A stretch of DNA of 61,819 nt from an uncultured Pseudomonadota bacterium (GCA_949300375.1 CASGEB010000009.1:1-61819); one strand, 5' to 3'. Shown: positions 8,507-61,819, counted from the stretch's first letter. The notes: generated by a model from the letters alone, not told the origin. Numbers and translations: made by a program.

Positions 8507-8567
8507 GCCAAAATCCTCCCCCTGTTTTTCAATAATGCTTGACACACAAGCTTTGCTGTGTTATAGT
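8507..8567 (+). promoter_or_regulatory. Shared Cys-rich-gene promoter module, copy 1
   Basis: GCCAAAAT (8507-8514), TTCAATA, 4 bp, TTGACA (8539-8544), a 17-bp spacer and TATAGT (8562-8567). The order and total length (61 bp) match copies at 25421-25481 (minus), 41180-41240 and 61708-61768. The promoter core is a good sigma-70 match; the upstream GCCAAAAT could be an activator or repressor site. It drives the Cys-rich genes A-C after a leader of about 440 nt. Confidence 0.85.
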
Positions 8568-8643
8568 AATCTTGATGTTGTTCCGAGGAGTTGTTTCGGA
8601 GCGGCATCCACATCTCCTGCTGTCTCCGGATGTTTTGTTTTAA

Positions 8644-8731
8644 TGGTCATCCTCGGGCGGCTGGTTTTAATGGTCATCCCCGGGCGGCTGGTTACTTTAC
8701 GGTCATCCCCGGGCTTGACCCGGGGATCCAC
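8644..8731. repeat. Intergenic dyad repeat units in the leader of Cys-rich gene A
   Basis: Three units beginning GGTCATCC(C/T)CGGGC start at 8644, 8672 and 8701, spaced about 28 bp. The last ends in a hairpin, CCCCGGG-CTTGA-CCCGGGG. Related units occur at 8829-8976, in and after the second island, and at the right edge of the window. Confidence 0.75.
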
Positions 8732-8828
8732 AGGCAACGGCAGGGGTTGTGAATAACATAACACCCGTCATTGCCGGACTTGCCCTGCTCGGCAGAGTTG
8801 GTGAATGGCAAAGGACTTTAAAAGCATT

Positions 8829-8976
8829 GTCATCCTCGGGGCGGCTTGTTTTAATTGTCATCCCCGGGCTGCGACCCGGGGATCCAAATGAACAATAAAG
8901 CCTTATGATTGACCTGGATTCTCGGATCACACCCTCAGGGTGACGCCAAGTGGATTGCCGGGTCAAGCCCGGCAAT
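8829..8976. repeat. Further dyad repeats in the leader of Cys-rich gene A
   Basis: A GTCATCCTCGGGG unit (8829) is followed by GTCATCCCCGGG with hairpin arms CCCCGGG/CCCGGGG (about 8861-8881). A CACCCT/AGGGTG dyad follows (about 8929-8942). Last is the perfect hairpin ATTGCCGGG-TCAAG-CCCGGCAAT (8954-8976). The gene A ribosome binding site begins 25 bp after the final hairpin. Confidence 0.75.
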
Positions 8977-9015
8977 GACATAAGAAAAGAATTTTTATAA
9001 GGGAGGAGACCGAAA

Positions 9016-10512
9016 ATGAAAAACACTATGCTACACATGAAACTAAACGCTGCGGTGTCGGTATTTTCCATCGCCGCCGCTTTCTCGGTCTTTCTCCCAG
9101 CCTCTAATGCCTATGGTGGAATCTGTTTCTTGCCCGACTGTAATTTAGACTTACCATCATATGACGATGTCAACTCAGATTCTTCCTGGTGTCTGGACAA
9201 CGGTTATTACTTCTCTTGTCCGGACGGAACCTCTCCTGATTATTCTCAAACCTGCCCGCGTGATGAGAGTTATACCAAATGTTCTGCCGAACAATGGTGC
9301 AAAGACCAAGGATATGACAAAACAGAAGAATATTGCCGAAGTTTGGGAGACACCTGGTATGCCGACAAGGACACCAAATGTCCGAATGGTCAGAATTTAT
9401 ATAAAGAATGTGTCGAAGACACCGCCCAGGCCTGTGAGGACAAAGGTTATGTCAACAACTGTTCCCGTCCCGACAAGACCGAACTCTGCGAATGGAACTC
9501 TTCCTTTGCAAAATGCTGCAACGACACCGAATCAAACGGATGTCCCGAGAACTCGAAAGTTTCCGGCTGTGAAAACGGCACGATTGTCGGACAGGACACC
9601 TGCGGTTATGACTGTCATCAATGTTGTCAAACCTCCTGTCCGGCCGGTTATGCCTATACCGATGAACAAACTTCCGGCGGCACAAGCGGATATATCAAAG
9701 ACGGGGATGATTACTGTCTGCATTGCACGCGCGGAAAACTATATAAACGGAAAGAAAACCCCTGCACCGGTTATGACCTCTGCTCCGGTTATGGCGGGGT
9801 TGATAACGGGGACTATTGCTACACAGGTAACACAAAAAAATACTCAAAATGCCGCGAAGAATGTTTGCCGGGATATATTGAATGGTGCGACGCGCCGATA
9901 ACCGATTGCGAAAAGTTGGGATACAAAAAAACAGTTTCTCAATGCAACGGAAAATTTTCTTTCACCTGTCCGTTTAACAAAGACAAAGTTTTCTGCGCGG
10001 ATGATTGCAGCTATACTTTCACGGCATCTGACTGTGCCAGCCAAAACAAAAATATTGGTTCACAATCATGCACTCGAAACGGGACAACCTATTATGCCTC
10101 TTGTGGAACGACTTGCACAAACGGAAACTGTACATCCACACCTTCACAATCAGAATGCAACTACGTCTATTTGGCGTCAGATTGCGCCAACCAATGCAAA
10201 GATGTTGGGAGCAAATCATGTACCCGTGATGGAAAAACTTACTATGAAAGCTGTGGCAACACCAAATGTGCTGAAGACAAGCTCTGCAATGATAAAGGAA
10301 GCTGTATTACGCCATGGTACGGATATTGCTGCGATGATGTAGGATCCTGTGATACAACATTTTGCAAAGCATATAATTATCCGGATTGCAGCGATGTCAT
10401 AAACAGCTGTAAAAGCTTGGGAAGAACACCGAAATTTGACCGCTGTACCCAATCAGCCTCTGCTCATGTTGCAATATATACATGTGAAAAAGAATACCAA
10501 TGCTACATCTAA
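9016..10512 (+). CDS. Cys-rich secreted protein A (large N-terminal region + alpha + beta + beta + gamma-like)
   Basis: I do not recognise a described family. The 498-residue protein starts after GGGAGGAG and has a signal-peptide-like N-terminus (Lys, then a hydrophobic stretch to PASNAYG). Residues about 35-295 form a large Cys-rich region shared with protein E at 41518. Then come an alpha module (about 296-327: DC..LGY..T..C....CPF...K.FC), two beta modules (about 330-431: C.YT...DC, SCTRNGTTYY.SCG..KC) and a diverged gamma module (CC...YPDC....SC). Cys occurs throughout, often paired, and there is no transmembrane helix after the signal. It is first in a run with B and C in the same orientation. 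An exported, disulfide-bonded surface or matrix protein is inferred; its function is unknown. Confidence 0.88.
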   Translation: MKNTMLHMKLNAAVSVFSIAAAFSVFLPASNAYGGICFLPDCNLDLPSYDDVNSDSSWCLDNGYYFSCPDGTSPDYSQTCPRDESYTKCSAEQWCKDQGYDKTEEYCRSLGDTWYADKDTKCPNGQNLYKECVEDTAQACEDKGYVNNCSRPDKTELCEWNSSFAKCCNDTESNGCPENSKVSGCENGTIVGQDTCGYDCHQCCQTSCPAGYAYTDEQTSGGTSGYIKDGDDYCLHCTRGKLYKRKENPCTGYDLCSGYGGVDNGDYCYTGNTKKYSKCREECLPGYIEWCDAPITDCEKLGYKKTVSQCNGKFSFTCPFNKDKVFCADDCSYTFTASDCASQNKNIGSQSCTRNGTTYYASCGTTCTNGNCTSTPSQSECNYVYLASDCANQCKDVGSKSCTRDGKTYYESCGNTKCAEDKLCNDKGSCITPWYGYCCDDVGSCDTTFCKAYNYPDCSDVINSCKSLGRTPKFDRCTQSASAHVAIYTCEKEYQCYI

Positions 10513-10537
10513 ACCGGCATTCTATGGGAGAAAGATA

Positions 10538-11059
10538 ATGAAAAAAGACTTATTATCAGCTGCTATCGCTATATTAACCGTCACAACGGCTTCTAATGTC
10601 CGTGCAGCTTGTACTTCTACTCCGGACTGCAAATCTATGGGATACATTTACACTGTTGAAGAATGTTCCGGAAGTTATATAGCCTGCCCTTTTGATACCT
10701 CTAAAGTCTTTTGCTTTGACCCTTGTCTGTATACACTAAAGGCAGATAATTGCCCGGCATCACAAGGAAAAAGACCGGGTACACAATCTTGTATCAGAGG
10801 AGGAACAGTTTACTACGCAAATTGTGAAAATCTTTGTGATACTTTTGAAACCTATATTAATGGAACCTGTGTCCCAACAGTCTGCTGTGACAACACCAGT
10901 ACGTCAGAATATATTGATTCCGGCCTCTCCCTTTGTCGTAACACCTATAATTATCCGGACTGTACTTACCTTTTTGCCAGCTGCCGCAATGCTGGAGGAA
11001 CTGTTAAATACAATCACTGTATGCACCCTGGAATGGCCTCATTTAATTGTGAAAAATAA
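10538..11059 (+). CDS. Cys-rich secreted protein B (alpha + beta-like + gamma-like)
   Basis: The start at 10538 is chosen because GGGAGAAAG precedes it and the product begins MKKDLLSAAIAILTV, a signal peptide with a cleavage-type NVRAAC end; an in-frame ATG further upstream lies inside gene A. The precursor has 173 residues with 18 cysteines, all after the signal. Residues about 23-55 match the alpha module (PDCKSMGYIYT, ACPFDTSKVFC). The middle is a reduced beta module (CIRGGTVYYANC), and the C-terminal YNYPDC....SC part resembles a degenerate gamma module. It is 25 bp after gene A and 25 bp before gene C. Function unknown. Confidence 0.85.
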   Translation: MKKDLLSAAIAILTVTTASNVRAACTSTPDCKSMGYIYTVEECSGSYIACPFDTSKVFCFDPCLYTLKADNCPASQGKRPGTQSCIRGGTVYYANCENLCDTFETYINGTCVPTVCCDNTSTSEYIDSGLSLCRNTYNYPDCTYLFASCRNAGGTVKYNHCMHPGMASFNCEK

Positions 11060-11084
11060 CTTATATACTAAAGGGAATAAAAAA

Positions 11085-11831
11085 ATGAAAAAAGGATTAC
11101 TATTAGGCTCTGTCGGAATATTAACCATTCTCGGAAACACAAAAATCCAAGCCGGATGCATTCCGACTAACGATTGTTCTTCTTTAGGATACAAATACAC
11201 TAAAGATGAATGTTCTGGGCAAGGGATTGCCTGCCCCTTCGACGCTGCCAAATATAATTGCGAAAACCCGTGTACATACAAGGTGAGCCTTTCCGACTGT
11301 TCATCCAAATGTTTAAATAATGGTACAAAATCATGCACAAGAAACGGAACAACCTACTACGAATCTTGTGGCGTTTCCAAATGTTCCAGCGGATATGAAT
11401 GTCAAAACGGAAAATGCGTAACAGCATGTACCTATACATATTCAGAATATATGTGCAGCCAGGAATGCAAATCGCCGGCCGGACGTTCTTGTACAAGAAA
11501 TGGTATAACGTTCTATGAAAGTTGCGGAAATTACAAATGCCCAAGCGGAAAAAAATGCTACGAGGGCAGTTGCTACACCCCCGTTCCGGTCGGCGAATAC
11601 TGCTGCGGATATGAAAACCAATGCGGATACAGCGGGGGAACAAGCAGTTCTTTCGATAGCAGATGTTACAGCATATACGGACAAAGTTGTTATCAAAAAT
11701 GCAGATCCATGGGATACCCTGATTGCACAGACTGGATACCAAGCTGCTATGCAACGGGAAATTCTCCCCAGAGAAAAGGATGCAGTTCTGACGGAAATGC
11801 AACAAACTATGCTATAAGCTGGTATTGTTAA
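11085..11831 (+). CDS. Cys-rich secreted protein C (alpha + beta + beta + gamma)
   Basis: The start at 11085 follows AAGGGAATAA and gives a signal peptide (MKKGLLLGSVGILTILGNTKIQA). The 248-residue precursor shows the modules most clearly. Alpha (about 23-55) has 5 Cys (NDCSSLGYKYT, CPFDAAKYNC). Two beta modules (about 56-107 and 108-157) have 8 Cys each and both contain SCTRNG and ESCG. Gamma (about 163-248) has 10 Cys (YCCGY..QCGYSGGTSSS, GYPDCTD). The mature part therefore has 31 Cys. It is last of the A-B-C run; no strong terminator is visible in the 43 bp before the convergent priA end. Function unknown. Confidence 0.87.
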   Translation: MKKGLLLGSVGILTILGNTKIQAGCIPTNDCSSLGYKYTKDECSGQGIACPFDAAKYNCENPCTYKVSLSDCSSKCLNNGTKSCTRNGTTYYESCGVSKCSSGYECQNGKCVTACTYTYSEYMCSQECKSPAGRSCTRNGITFYESCGNYKCPSGKKCYEGSCYTPVPVGEYCCGYENQCGYSGGTSSSFDSRCYSIYGQSCYQKCRSMGYPDCTDWIPSCYATGNSPQRKGCSSDGNATNYAISWYC

Positions 11832-24786: not shown

Positions 24787-25386
24787 TTACTGACATACAT
24801 AATATGCATTGCCAAAATAACCATAGTAACTATCTCCTTCACAAAGCTGGAAAACAGGATTGCGGCCGGAAGCACGGCAGCTTGCATGCATATCGCTGCA
24901 ATCCGGATAACCGCGGTATCTGCATTGTTCATAACAGCTCCGGCCATAGTAGCTTTGACAATAACTGTCATTGGAATTTGAAGTTCCGCCATTATACCCG
25001 CATTCATAAACATATCCGCAACACCAGCCGCTTGCTGAAACAGAAGTAAAACACGTTCCGTTATAACAGCTTTGCCCGCTTGAGCATTTGGAAGAACCGC
25101 AGGAAGCGTAATAAGTTACGCCATTTCTGACGCAGGAGGAAGAGCCTGGGTTTTGGCAGTTAGCGGCGCAGGCCTCGGCGGTGTAGGTGTAATCGCAGGT
25201 CTGCGGGTCGAAACAAAAATATTTTGTTGTGTCAAACGGACATTTAACCCCGTCGTTCGGGCATTCATCGGCGGTATATTTATAACCCATTGCCTCACAG
25301 TCCGGGGTCTGGGTGCAGGCCGCTAAGACATAACCGGATGCAAGAGCGGTACAGCACAAGGCGCTCCAAAAAATATATTGTTTCAT
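24787..25386 (-). CDS. Cys-rich secreted protein D (alpha + beta + gamma)
   Basis: The start at 25386 is preferred: it follows GGGAGAGG and gives a signal peptide (MKQYIFWSALCCTALASGYVLA), while the longer open frame begins upstream of the promoter -10. The 199-residue precursor has alpha (about 23-58, 5 Cys: PDCEAMGYKYT, CPFDTTKYFC), beta (about 60-110, 8 Cys: SCVRNGVTYYASCG) and gamma (about 118-199, 10 Cys: WCCGYVYECGYNGGTS, GRSCYEQC, GYPDCSDMHASCRASG). Gamma is very close to those of E and F. It is a single gene with its own copy of the promoter module and a leader of only about 28 nt. Function unknown. Confidence 0.88.
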   Translation of the reverse strand: MKQYIFWSALCCTALASGYVLAACTQTPDCEAMGYKYTADECPNDGVKCPFDTTKYFCFDPQTCDYTYTAEACAANCQNPGSSSCVRNGVTYYASCGSSKCSSGQSCYNGTCFTSVSASGWCCGYVYECGYNGGTSNSNDSYCQSYYGRSCYEQCRYRGYPDCSDMHASCRASGRNPVFQLCEGDSYYGYFGNAYYVCQ

Positions 25387-25420: not shown

Positions 25421-25481
25421 ACTATACCACACCTCAAACGAATAGTCAATATATAATGAAAAGTATGACGGGGATTTTGGC
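25421..25481 (-). promoter_or_regulatory. Shared Cys-rich-gene promoter module, copy 4 (gene D)
   Basis: On the minus strand: GCCAAAAT (25481-25474), TTCATTA, 4 bp, TTGACT (25449-25444), a 17-bp spacer and TATAGT (25426-25421). The element spans 61 bp, as in the other three copies. Between the GCCAAAAT and TTCATTA boxes it is almost identical to the copy at 61708 (CCCCGTYAYACTT). Confidence 0.85.
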
Positions 25482-41179: not shown

Positions 41180-41240
41180 GCCAAAATACCACTCCAACTT
41201 TTCATTAATCATTGACACTGGCGTTTTGTTGTGGTATAGT
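41180..41240 (+). promoter_or_regulatory. Shared Cys-rich-gene promoter module, copy 2 (genes E and F)
   Basis: GCCAAAAT (41180-41187), TTCATTA (41201-41207), 4 bp, TTGACA (41212-41217), a 17-bp spacer and TATAGT (41235-41240). The spacing equals that of the other copies. The leader to gene E is about 270 nt. Confidence 0.85.
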
Positions 41241-41517
41241 AGTTTTTAATAATGTTTCTTTTGTCTTGTCATTCTGCGTCACCCTGAGGGTGTGACCCGA
41301 GAATCCACCTGCACGGCAGGCGCGCGGCGAGTTGAATGCACTGAGCTCAAGAGACCGCGATGCTATGACGGGGTTTGGAATGACAAAAGAAGAAAAGAAT
41401 TTTTATTAACTATTCCGGGCACGATGTTGTTCGGAAAAAAGAAAAGAGCAACGCGAAAGCTTTGGCACGATGATGACAAATGATCGGGTCAAGCACGTTT
41501 GCTTGGGGAGGAGACCG
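41241..41517. other. Leader of Cys-rich gene E
   Basis: There is no gene here. It contains a dyad TCACCCT/AGGGTGTGA (41279-41295) followed by CCCGAGAATCC, the same elements seen in opposite orientation at 8926-8942. The end (GGGGAGGAGACCG) is nearly identical to that before gene A. A short in-frame upstream extension from 41470 is not needed. Confidence 0.6.
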
Positions 41518-42777
41518 ATGAGAAATTATAACACTATGCTACACATGAAACTAAACGCTGCGGTGTCGGTATTTTCTATCGCCGCTGCTTTCTCGGTCTT
41601 CCTCCCGCCCTCTAATGCCTATGGAGGAGTCTGTTTTTTGCCTGACTGTAATCTGGACGGCACCTCTTTTGATGACGTCAACTCCGATTCTTCCTGGTGT
41701 ATTGATAATGGCTACTATTTCACCTGTCCCGAAGGCACGGCTCCTGATTATTCTCAGACCTGCCCGCGTGACGAGAGCTACACCAAATGTTCCTCCGAGC
41801 AATGGTGCATTGACAACGGTTACACCAAAACCGCTCAATCCTGTTATGACCTCGGGCCGACCTGGTTCCCGCAAAACCTCTGTCCAAAAGGCTTTGACCT
41901 CTACAAATCCTGTGTCGAAGACACCGCTCAGGCCTGTGAGGACAAAGGCTATGTCAACAACTGTTCCCGTCCCGACAAGACCGAGATTTGTGAATGGGAT
42001 TCTTCTTTTGCCAAATGCTGCAACGATACCGAATCAAACGGATGTCCCGAGAACTCGAAAGTCTCAGGCTGTGAAGACGGCACGATTGTCGGACAGGACA
42101 CCTGCGGTTATGACTGTCATCAATGTTGTCAGACCTCCTGTCCGGCCGGTTATGCCTATACCGATGAAGAAACCTCCGGCGGCACGAGCGGATATATCAA
42201 AGACATGGCGAATGAAGACGATTACTGTCTGCACTGCACACGCGGCAAACTGTATAAACGGAAAGAAAACCCCTGTACCGGTTATGACCTCTGTTCGACT
42301 TATGGCGGGGTTGATAACGGGGATTATTGTTATACGGGGAATACGAAGAAATATTCGAAATGTCTGACCGAATGCCGGCCGGGATATATAGAATGGTGCG
42401 ACACGCCGGTCACCGATTGTGAGAAACTGGGCTATACGCAGACGGCGGCGGAATGTGCGAACGTGCCGGCTGTCGCCTGCCCGTTCAACGGGGATAAGTG
42501 GTATTGTAAAGATTACAGCAATGTCCCGACGAGCGGGCGCTGTTGCGGATATATTAACGATTGCGGATACAACGGAGAAACATCAAGTTCTTATGATTCT
42601 AATTGTCAAAGTTATTATGGCAGAAGTTGTTATGAACAGTGCAAGAGTTATGGATTCCCTGATTGTCCTGATATGCAGGCGAGCTGTCGAGCCTCAGGCG
42701 GTACCCCGGTCTTCGATGGTTGCAACTACGACGGCTACCCCACCAACGACTACCTCGCCTACTTCCTCTGCCAGTAG
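41518..42777 (+). CDS. Cys-rich secreted protein E (large N-terminal region + alpha + gamma)
   Basis: The start at 41518 is chosen because GGGGAGGAG precedes it, exactly as for gene A, and the first residues (MRNYNTMLHMKLNAAVSVF) are nearly those of A. The 419-residue precursor has a signal peptide to PPSNAYG and a large Cys-rich region (to about residue 300) almost identical to that of A in long stretches, including CGYDCHQCCQTSCPAGYAYT. Then come an alpha module (DCEKLGYTQTAAEC, ACPFNGDKWYC) and a gamma module (RCCGY..DCGYNGE, GRSCYEQC, CRASGGTPVF). It lacks the two beta modules of A. Its C-terminal module and stop region closely match F. Function unknown. Confidence 0.88.
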   Translation: MRNYNTMLHMKLNAAVSVFSIAAAFSVFLPPSNAYGGVCFLPDCNLDGTSFDDVNSDSSWCIDNGYYFTCPEGTAPDYSQTCPRDESYTKCSSEQWCIDNGYTKTAQSCYDLGPTWFPQNLCPKGFDLYKSCVEDTAQACEDKGYVNNCSRPDKTEICEWDSSFAKCCNDTESNGCPENSKVSGCEDGTIVGQDTCGYDCHQCCQTSCPAGYAYTDEETSGGTSGYIKDMANEDDYCLHCTRGKLYKRKENPCTGYDLCSTYGGVDNGDYCYTGNTKKYSKCLTECRPGYIEWCDTPVTDCEKLGYTQTAAECANVPAVACPFNGDKWYCKDYSNVPTSGRCCGYINDCGYNGETSSSYDSNCQSYYGRSCYEQCKSYGFPDCPDMQASCRASGGTPVFDGCNYDGYPTNDYLAYFLCQ

Positions 42778-42898
42778 TCGTCTCTGCCTGTCATTGCCGG
42801 GGGATTTCTTCTTTTGTCATTCTCGGGCTGCGACCCGAGAATCCAGATAAAAAAGAAGCCATATGATTGACCTGGATCCCCGGGTCAAGCCCGGGGAT
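42770..42898. repeat. Dyad repeats after Cys-rich gene E
   Basis: This begins with a 32-nt segment (42770-42801) identical to 43476-43507 and spanning the E stop codon. Two hairpins follow: ATTCTCGGG-CTGCGA-CCCGAGAAT (42819-42842) and ATCCCCGGG-TCAAG-CCCGGGGAT (42876-42898). The arms belong to the same family as the dyads at 8701-8976. Confidence 0.8.
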
Positions 42899-43022
42899 GA
42901 CAAATAAAAAAAAAGAGCCCGGGGATGAAGAAAGAAAAAAGAGAACCAGGGGCTGAAAAAATAAAAAGGTGCTTAGGAATGACAAATAAAAAAGTGCTTG
43001 GGATAACAGAATAGAAAACGGC
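42893..43022 (+). repeat. Degenerate purine-rich tandem repeat upstream of gene F
   Basis: About five units begin with GGGGATGA or a decayed form (at 42893, 42921, 42949, 42975 and 43000), with spacing of 28, 28, 26 and 25 bp. Each has an A-rich middle (ATAAAAA) and a GAGCCC or GTGCTT end. It is non-coding. Confidence 0.65.
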
Positions 43023-43042
43023 AATTAAAAAGGAGAAAAGTT

Positions 43043-43483
43043 ATGAGAAAAGGAATGTTGATAACCGTGGCGGGGATGGCTTTGTTAGCCGGAACTGCCG
43101 ATGTCCGGGCCGCTTGTATTCCGACGCAGGACTGCGCCAGCCTCGGCTATAAATACACCGCCGCACAATGCCCCGACGGCGCCATCGCCTGCCCCGATGA
43201 CAGCGGCTCCACCACCCCAGACCCGGCTCCTTCCGTCCCGACAAGCGGATATTGCTGCGGGTATACGACTTATTGCGGATATAGTGGAGGAACGTCAAGT
43301 TATAGTGACTCAAGCTGTCGTAGTTATTGGGGTAGAAGTTGTTATGAACAATGCAAGAGTTATGGATACCCTGATTGTACTGATATGCACGCCCGTTGTC
43401 GAGCCTCCGGCGGTACCCCGGTCTTCCAGGGTTGCACCAAGGGCTACAACACCAACTTCGTCGCCCTCTTCGCGTGCCAGTAG
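43043..43483 (+). CDS. Cys-rich secreted protein F (short alpha + gamma)
   Basis: AAGGAGAAAAG precedes the ATG. The 146-residue precursor has a signal peptide (MRKGMLITVAGMALLAGTADVRA) and 14 Cys in the mature part. These form a truncated alpha module (CIPTQDCASLGYKYTAAQC, then ACPDD without the final Cys), a Thr/Pro/Ser linker (TTPDPAPSVPTS) and a full 10-Cys gamma module (YCCGYTTYCGYSGGTSS, GRSCYEQC, GYPDCTDMHARCRASGG). It is 265 bp after gene E with no separate promoter module, so it is probably transcribed with E. Function unknown. Confidence 0.85.
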   Translation: MRKGMLITVAGMALLAGTADVRAACIPTQDCASLGYKYTAAQCPDGAIACPDDSGSTTPDPAPSVPTSGYCCGYTTYCGYSGGTSSYSDSSCRSYWGRSCYEQCKSYGYPDCTDMHARCRASGGTPVFQGCTKGYNTNFVALFACQ

Positions 43484-61707: not shown

Positions 61708-61768
61708 GCCAAAATCCCCGTTACACTTTTCATTAAGCATTGACACGGGCGTTTTGTTATGGTATAGT
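61708..61768 (+). promoter_or_regulatory. Shared Cys-rich-gene promoter module, copy 3, reading out of the window
   Basis: GCCAAAAT (61708-61715), TTCATTA, 4 bp, TTGACA (61740-61745), a 17-bp spacer and TATAGT (61763-61768). It is followed by GATGTTGTTC, also found after copy 1, and by GGTTATCCTTAGGCAGC (61797 on), a decayed form of the dyad unit seen at 8644. No coding sequence begins before the window ends. Confidence 0.85.
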
Positions 61769-61819
61769 GGTCTTTAGATGTTGTTCTTGAGGAACCGGTT
61801 ATCCTTAGGCAGCTTGTTT

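Follow-up and report, generated by a model that had tools for sequence, protein, structure and literature searches.

Lcl_C (DUF1566, PF07603) proteins, such as the collagen-like adhesin Lcl of Legionella, are exported and carry a C-terminal binding domain behind an extended N-terminal part. The Lcl_C domain of Legionella is lectin-like and binds glycosaminoglycans (PMC11162425), and DUF1566 is a common target of diversity-generating retroelements (DGRs) (PMC6642488). Type IVb pilus systems can secrete a Sec-exported protein, and the genes for the proteins secreted in this way, TcpF and CofJ, accompany those of the pili (PMC9565799).

Here we describe a family of cysteine-rich, putatively exported proteins in an uncultured Pseudomonadota bacterium (GCA_949300375.1; here G000), whose genome comprises 1.64 Mb in 57 contigs. 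The stretch of DNA that was analysed (CASGEB010000009.1:1-61819; 61,819 nucleotides) is referred to as the window. The proteins consist of an N-terminal signal followed by three kinds of module, alpha, beta and gamma, the last at the C-terminus. Their closest counterparts are Lcl_C proteins of sister genomes, which join PF07603 to the same signal-alpha(-beta) carrier. In contrast to the Lcl_C proteins, the family in G000 is found without PF07603, its gamma end is Cys-rich, and the spacer is made of alpha/beta repeats rather than of collagen. Relatives diversify the C-terminus of alpha-Lcl_C proteins by DGRs, whereas G000 gives no reverse transcriptase match and gamma diversity is spread across many loci. 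As with TcpF and CofJ, there is a Sec signal and the genome has a type IVb cluster with a secretin, which could be the exit route, but the family genes lie outside the pilus cluster.

Organization of the family genes in the window

The first-pass annotation described six complete genes, and all six are intact open frames at the positions that it gave. It assigned the family to the interval 9016-11831, which does hold genes A, B and C; genes D, E and F fall outside. The features are as follows (8509..8567 denotes the first and last base, and Cys numbers refer to the whole protein):

8509..8567, plus strand: family promoter of A, CAAAAT...TTGACA-N17-TATAGT, variant type
8568..9015, plus strand: long leader of A, with REP-like palindromes of the GTCATCCCCGGGCTTGACCCGGGGATCC type (by eye)
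9016..10512, plus strand: gene A; signal, large Cys-rich region, alpha, beta, beta, gamma (short CCDD type); 57 Cys
10327..10509, plus strand: gamma of A
10538..11059, plus strand: gene B; signal, alpha, divergent beta and gamma; 18 Cys
11085..11831, plus strand: gene C; signal, alpha, beta, beta, gamma; 31 Cys
11601..11828, plus strand: gamma of C
24787..25386, minus strand: gene D; signal, alpha (25213-25320), beta (25051-25197), gamma (24790-25025); 25 Cys
25423..25479, minus strand: family promoter of D
41182..41241, plus strand: family promoter of E
41518..42777, plus strand: gene E; signal, large Cys-rich region with alpha-like repeats, alpha (42409-42509), gamma (42541-42774); 44 Cys
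43043..43483, plus strand: gene F; signal, alpha cut short, gamma (43253-43480); 14 Cys
61710..61771, plus strand: further family promoter; the contig ends 75 bases later, and its gene presumably lies beyond the window

Cysteine accounts for 9.6-12.6% of the residues of the A-F proteins. The sole hydrophobic segment of each is N-terminal, in line with the signal peptide and the lack of any further membrane segment that had been noted for all of them. The motifs and architectures reported earlier were also recovered, i.e. five Cys in alpha, eight in beta, ten in the gamma of D, and a short alpha in F. By eye, the large region of A and E is composed of repeats resembling diverged alpha units. 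Genes adjoining A-C are ATP synthase and PriA-like genes (by eye).

Gene B had been called degenerate, a description that does not hold. All 18 of its Cys are kept in the orthologue from genome G006, with a dN/dS of 0.23, and, to judge from its sequence, B is a divergent alpha-beta-gamma protein rather than a degenerate one. For A (partial) and C the dN/dS values against the G006 orthologues are 0.15 and 0.10, respectively, and A (partial), B and C each have as many Cys as their orthologues.

Modules and predicted structure

The alpha consensus is C..T.DC..LGY.YT..EC.....CPFD..KYFC, with five Cys. Beta has eight invariant Cys and the core C.[RK]NG.TYY.SC, and gamma has ten Cys in its CCGY type, with a shorter CCDD type in A and some paralogues. 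Searches of Pfam, NCBIfam and PHROGs with A-F, up to E-values of 1-10, gave no usable match (Pfam none up to E=10), a PDB sequence search with C returned weak matches only, and no paper on an alpha-beta-gamma family was found in the literature. The earlier suggestion that the family is possibly undescribed agrees with these results, as no Pfam, NCBIfam, PHROGs or PDB family explains A-F. The gamma profile did match a designed helical repeat protein in PDB (5e-4), but no single stretch was significant and the match was attributed to chance.

An AlphaFold2 model of D (27 sequences) reached a mean pLDDT of 88 and a pTM of 0.68. In this model beta is predicted to form a helix and hairpins, and gamma a helix-helix-helix-hairpin arrangement; the block of lowest confidence (63) is the gamma variable loop. 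The predicted secondary-structure elements of D sit inside the proposed modules, so that for this protein the model respects the module borders. The model of E had a pLDDT of 51 and its large region was unusable, although its gamma elements were as in the D model. Foldseek found no match for the D model in PDB and viral libraries at E<=0.001. The best hit in a VIA fold search had a Z of 2.7 over residues 96-177 only, a range that excludes no fold, least of all for alpha and beta. Gamma is an undescribed domain, in which a fixed disulfide frame seems to support a single variable loop.

One known domain resembles beta. Kazal/follistatin-like domains have the same core spacing, C-x2-[ND]G-x-TY-x3-C, and in PDB the beta profile matched best the Kazal domain of WFIKKN2 (E=0.072) and next the protease inhibitor haemadin (0.77); one family member gave a FIMAC match in Pfam (0.023). 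The proteins might accordingly be secreted protease inhibitors, with beta blocking host or microbial gut proteases and gamma tuning the targeting. We regard this as unlikely. The WFIKKN2, haemadin and FIMAC matches are all weak, and the Pfam Kazal model matched none of the family proteins searched. Beta has eight Cys rather than six, and around its core the D model predicts a helix before (48-53) and strands after (74-77, 83-86, 89-92), where a Kazal domain has a helix. Moreover, beta is conserved and has no copy in many members, e.g. F, E and the gene at C1:87826, and therefore cannot carry the diversified function.

A lipoprotein reading of the N-terminus was also considered and rejected: a lipobox-like LAAC occurs in the MKQ type only, and position -3 is occupied by R or Q in C, B and F (by eye), which makes signal peptidase I more likely for the family.

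Family promoter and assembly breaks

The family promoter has the form CAAAAT-N9-ACTTTTCATT-N5-TTGAC, followed by the -10 element TATAGT, and lies upstream of D and E and, in a variant form, upstream of A. There are 37 copies in G000 against 0 with the reversed control; in the window, 4 matches compare with 0.01 expected from shuffles. Wherever enough sequence remains, the gene downstream of the promoter is a family gene. The shared regulation proposed in the first-pass annotation is supported by these counts. Elsewhere the promoter is found in 35 copies in G006, 31 in G004 and 18 in G005, with 0 in G001, 0 in G003 and 3 weak ones in G002. REP-like palindromes of the type listed above fill the leader and spacer sequences of both the A-C and the E-F unit (8568-9015, 41241-41517 and 42780-43040).

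At least 25 of the 57 contigs of G000 end less than 930 bases past a family promoter, and others start inside family genes, which indicates that the family breaks the assembly. Broken family copies occur on C6, C16, C27, C37 and C44. A whole contig of G006 (also numbered C16) is colinear with window positions 9181-41251 at about 92% identity, and ends inside A and at the E promoter. Since contigs end at family genes, the repertoire exceeds the counted copies, and short-read MAGs in general will undercount such genes.

Family size and distribution

In G000, tblastn with C gave 40 matches and a profile search 41, from which 24 distinct gamma ends were extracted. Profile E-values reached 2e-81 (D itself was in the profile), and those of independent paralogues ranged from 1e-80 to 1e-50; together with the promoter count of 37 to 0, this excludes chance as the source of the family likeness.

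At 1e-6, matches were found in 41 of 101 genomes from the same taxonomic family. Of the matches listed, nearly all from beyond the genus span alpha or beta only, and those with a full gamma are in G000, G004, G005 and G006. A class-wide draw of 289 genomes contained three with a match, all within the same genus. The named matches are MAGs of uncultured Alphaproteobacteria, one of them from water deer rectum, and plasmid and phage sequences gave no family match. As far as these sequence searches go, the family is restricted to one lineage of uncultured gut Alphaproteobacteria.

Three further observations concern individual loci. The IMG/VR contig IMGVR_UViG_3300031555_010385 carries a signal-alpha-Lcl_C-like gene (L161:2293-2754), which may be phage cargo or may reflect a mis-called bacterial contig. 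An A-type gene on G000:C29 (L099:1187-2401) has the family promoter, ends in an unrelated C-terminal stretch and lacks gamma, indicating that other end modules exist. G006:C22 carries two A-type genes (L120 and L126), separated by about 10 kb, that share the same gamma and represent a recent duplication.

Module exchange and gamma diversity

Median identity among paralogues is 80% for beta and 39% for gamma. In CCGY-type gammas of G000 the diversity is concentrated in the loop between the last two Cys, whose entropy is 2.74 bits against 1.35 at other non-Cys positions (p=7e-8).

The syntenic D locus separates the histories of the two modules. Its beta is closer to the paralogue on C18 (95% identity) than to the orthologue (76%), while its gamma is closer to the orthologue (90%, against 41% for the paralogue). 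Informative sites split 30:3 in beta and 10:23 in gamma (Fisher p=6e-7), i.e. beta matches the paralogue and gamma the orthologue. Architecture may also differ between orthologues: the gene at C1:87826 is alpha-gamma, and its gamma-orthologue L121 is alpha-beta-gamma. The module shuffling suggested earlier is thus confirmed, and the comparisons indicate that the 5' part undergoes exchange and gene conversion while gamma is fixed by locus. As both genomes are fragmented assemblies, and G006 is a MAG, this conclusion is subject to the caveat that individual loci may be assembly chimeras. An internal tandem duplication was noticed in the gamma of L018 (G000:C52:6264-6782), which contains DNYCQNYYGISCYEQC twice and is probably a recent event.

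Despite its variability among paralogues, gamma is conserved between species. Against the G006 orthologues its pooled dN/dS is 0.16, indicating purifying selection, and gamma loops at the same locus are near-identical across species. Such values are a poor fit to an arms race with the host.

These data also bear on antigenic variation, in which a pool of copies of surface protein genes would recombine into new variants. The family has dozens of copies, several of them broken, and gene conversion takes place among paralogues, as this explanation would predict. However, conversion homogenises the 5' part rather than gamma, and the conservation of gamma loops between species runs against it. Furthermore, with 37 promoter copies, many genes have their own complete promoter, and so there is no silent archive feeding one expression site. 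We therefore find antigenic variation very unlikely. Cys-rich surface families of eukaryotic parasites, such as the VSPs of Giardia, likewise comprise many paralogues with a conserved and a variable part. The alpha-beta-gamma family differs from them in being bacterial, in having no membrane anchor and in its locus-fixed gammas.

Lcl_C domains on the same carrier

PF07603 matches are numerous in related genomes (G001 9, G002 7, G003 12, G030 26, G062 23, G013 19, G015 9; none in G031). The gamma-rich genomes have 0 (G000), 0 (G004), 1 (G005, a 41-residue frame) and 1 (G006, an ORF without alpha). PF07603 and promoter counts across genomes therefore show opposite patterns. A signal-alpha-beta protein of G001 has an Lcl_C end with E=8e-7, which is under the curated cut-off, and clear Pfam Lcl_C matches on alpha-bearing proteins were found in L167 and L180. 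An alpha HMM made from gamma-type proteins detected alpha in 27 of 41 Lcl_C ORFs; among loci fetched by Lcl_C alone, alpha lay within the same ORF in 12 of 20.

Gamma and Lcl_C show no sequence similarity (hhalign probability 0.1), and the idea that gamma is a diverged Lcl_C is unsupported at the sequence level. If gamma took the place of Lcl_C, it was not by detectable simple divergence. Because gamma shows no detectable similarity to Lcl_C, nor the whole D model to any solved fold, the functional parallel between the two ends is one of position only.

In some relatives the Lcl_C end is the target of a DGR. In G077, a signal-alpha-Lcl_C gene (L168:51-863) has a variable repeat at 746-864 and a template repeat at 1494-1612, with a reverse transcriptase from position 1619 of L168 (RVT_1, 2.7e-10); all 20 of the 20 mismatches in the repeat pair fall at template adenines. 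The same pattern was found on an Lcl_C gene of G062 (L188; 21/21 mismatches), and in G057 template adenines account for 13/13 and 19/21 mismatches (L194 and L197). Reverse transcriptase (PF00078) is present in G077, G062, G003, G005 and others, with no match in G000, G004 and G006. At G005:C22:957-2072, in a gamma-family genome, a reverse transcriptase adjoins a short Lcl_C-like frame with a stop; this frame is probably a template repeat, and the locus perhaps represents a transitional state.

The occurrence of Lcl_C on the same carrier, in one case with a DGR, raises the likelihood that the family proteins bind ligands. By this analogy the end piece is probably the binding part, since the carrier of the relatives holds a lectin-like domain at the same place, with a DGR in at least one case. 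Small secreted effectors or toxins acting on microbes or host cells, with alpha-beta as the carrier and gamma as the active domain, would share the combination of a conserved N-terminal and a diversified C-terminal part in many co-expressed paralogues. We think this fairly unlikely, given that Pfam, NCBIfam and PHROGs yield no toxin or enzyme match, that no immunity-like partner gene was noticed by eye beside A-F, and that it is a lectin-like domain that holds the position of gamma in relatives.

Export and folding

Export and disulfide folding of the family proteins are likely, considering their sequence features and the DsbA encoded in the genome. The single secretin found sits in a type IVb pilus cluster (G000:C11, L097:208-11930) that includes PilS, PilO, T2SSE, T2SSF, the secretin and TcpQ. 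A TrbC/VirB2-like gene and an assembly gap of N occur near this cluster. The family genes are scattered, and no secretion partner linked to them was found.

Disulfide-rich repeats, co-expression, the absence of an enzyme domain and the presence of the pilus cluster could also point to structural proteins of the envelope or matrix (sheath, pilus-associated or cell-wall) having no specific ligand. Such a role appears quite improbable to us, as it would need neither 24 different, locus-conserved gamma ends nor Lcl_C as an alternative to them.

Proposed function and evolution

By a slight balance of probability, we favour the view that these are exported proteins with a binding function, in which a disulfide carrier common to the family bears a recognition end specific to each locus. 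The Sec signal would take each protein to the periplasm, where DsbA-type oxidation and the dense Cys would fold a chain of small disulfide domains, i.e. alpha and at least one beta, to which A/E-type genes would add a long run of alpha-like repeats. This alpha/beta chain may act as a carrier or spacer that is stiff and resists proteases. At the C-terminus, gamma would be the recognition module, with a conserved disulfide frame and one highly variable loop between its last two Cys. Passage across the outer membrane, perhaps via the type IVb pilus secretin, would follow, and we infer a surface location and host contact, with a ligand that may lie on the host, in mucus or on other microbes.

Many units would be transcribed from one sigma70-like promoter type, a frequent arrangement being an A/E-type gene with one or two small genes behind it. 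Gene conversion would keep promoter, signal, alpha and beta alike among paralogues, while gamma would stay proper to its locus. In the gamma-rich group, gamma would have replaced Lcl_C on the signal-alpha carrier. It is possible, though we would not call it probable, that this group of gut Alphaproteobacteria swapped a retroelement-mutated lectin for a germline repertoire of dozens of locus-fixed, disulfide-rich modules under one promoter type. If true, this would be a bacterial shift from hypermutation to a multigene receptor repertoire.

Such a large and strictly modular secreted repertoire is unusual for a bacterial genome of 1.6 Mb, and its hosts are uncultured bacteria of the animal gut. 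If the view of gamma as a loop on a disulfide frame holds, the module would offer a natural scaffold for binding. Comparing DGR-mutated Lcl_C with many fixed gammas might also help in understanding when a lineage favours hypermutation and when a gene repertoire.
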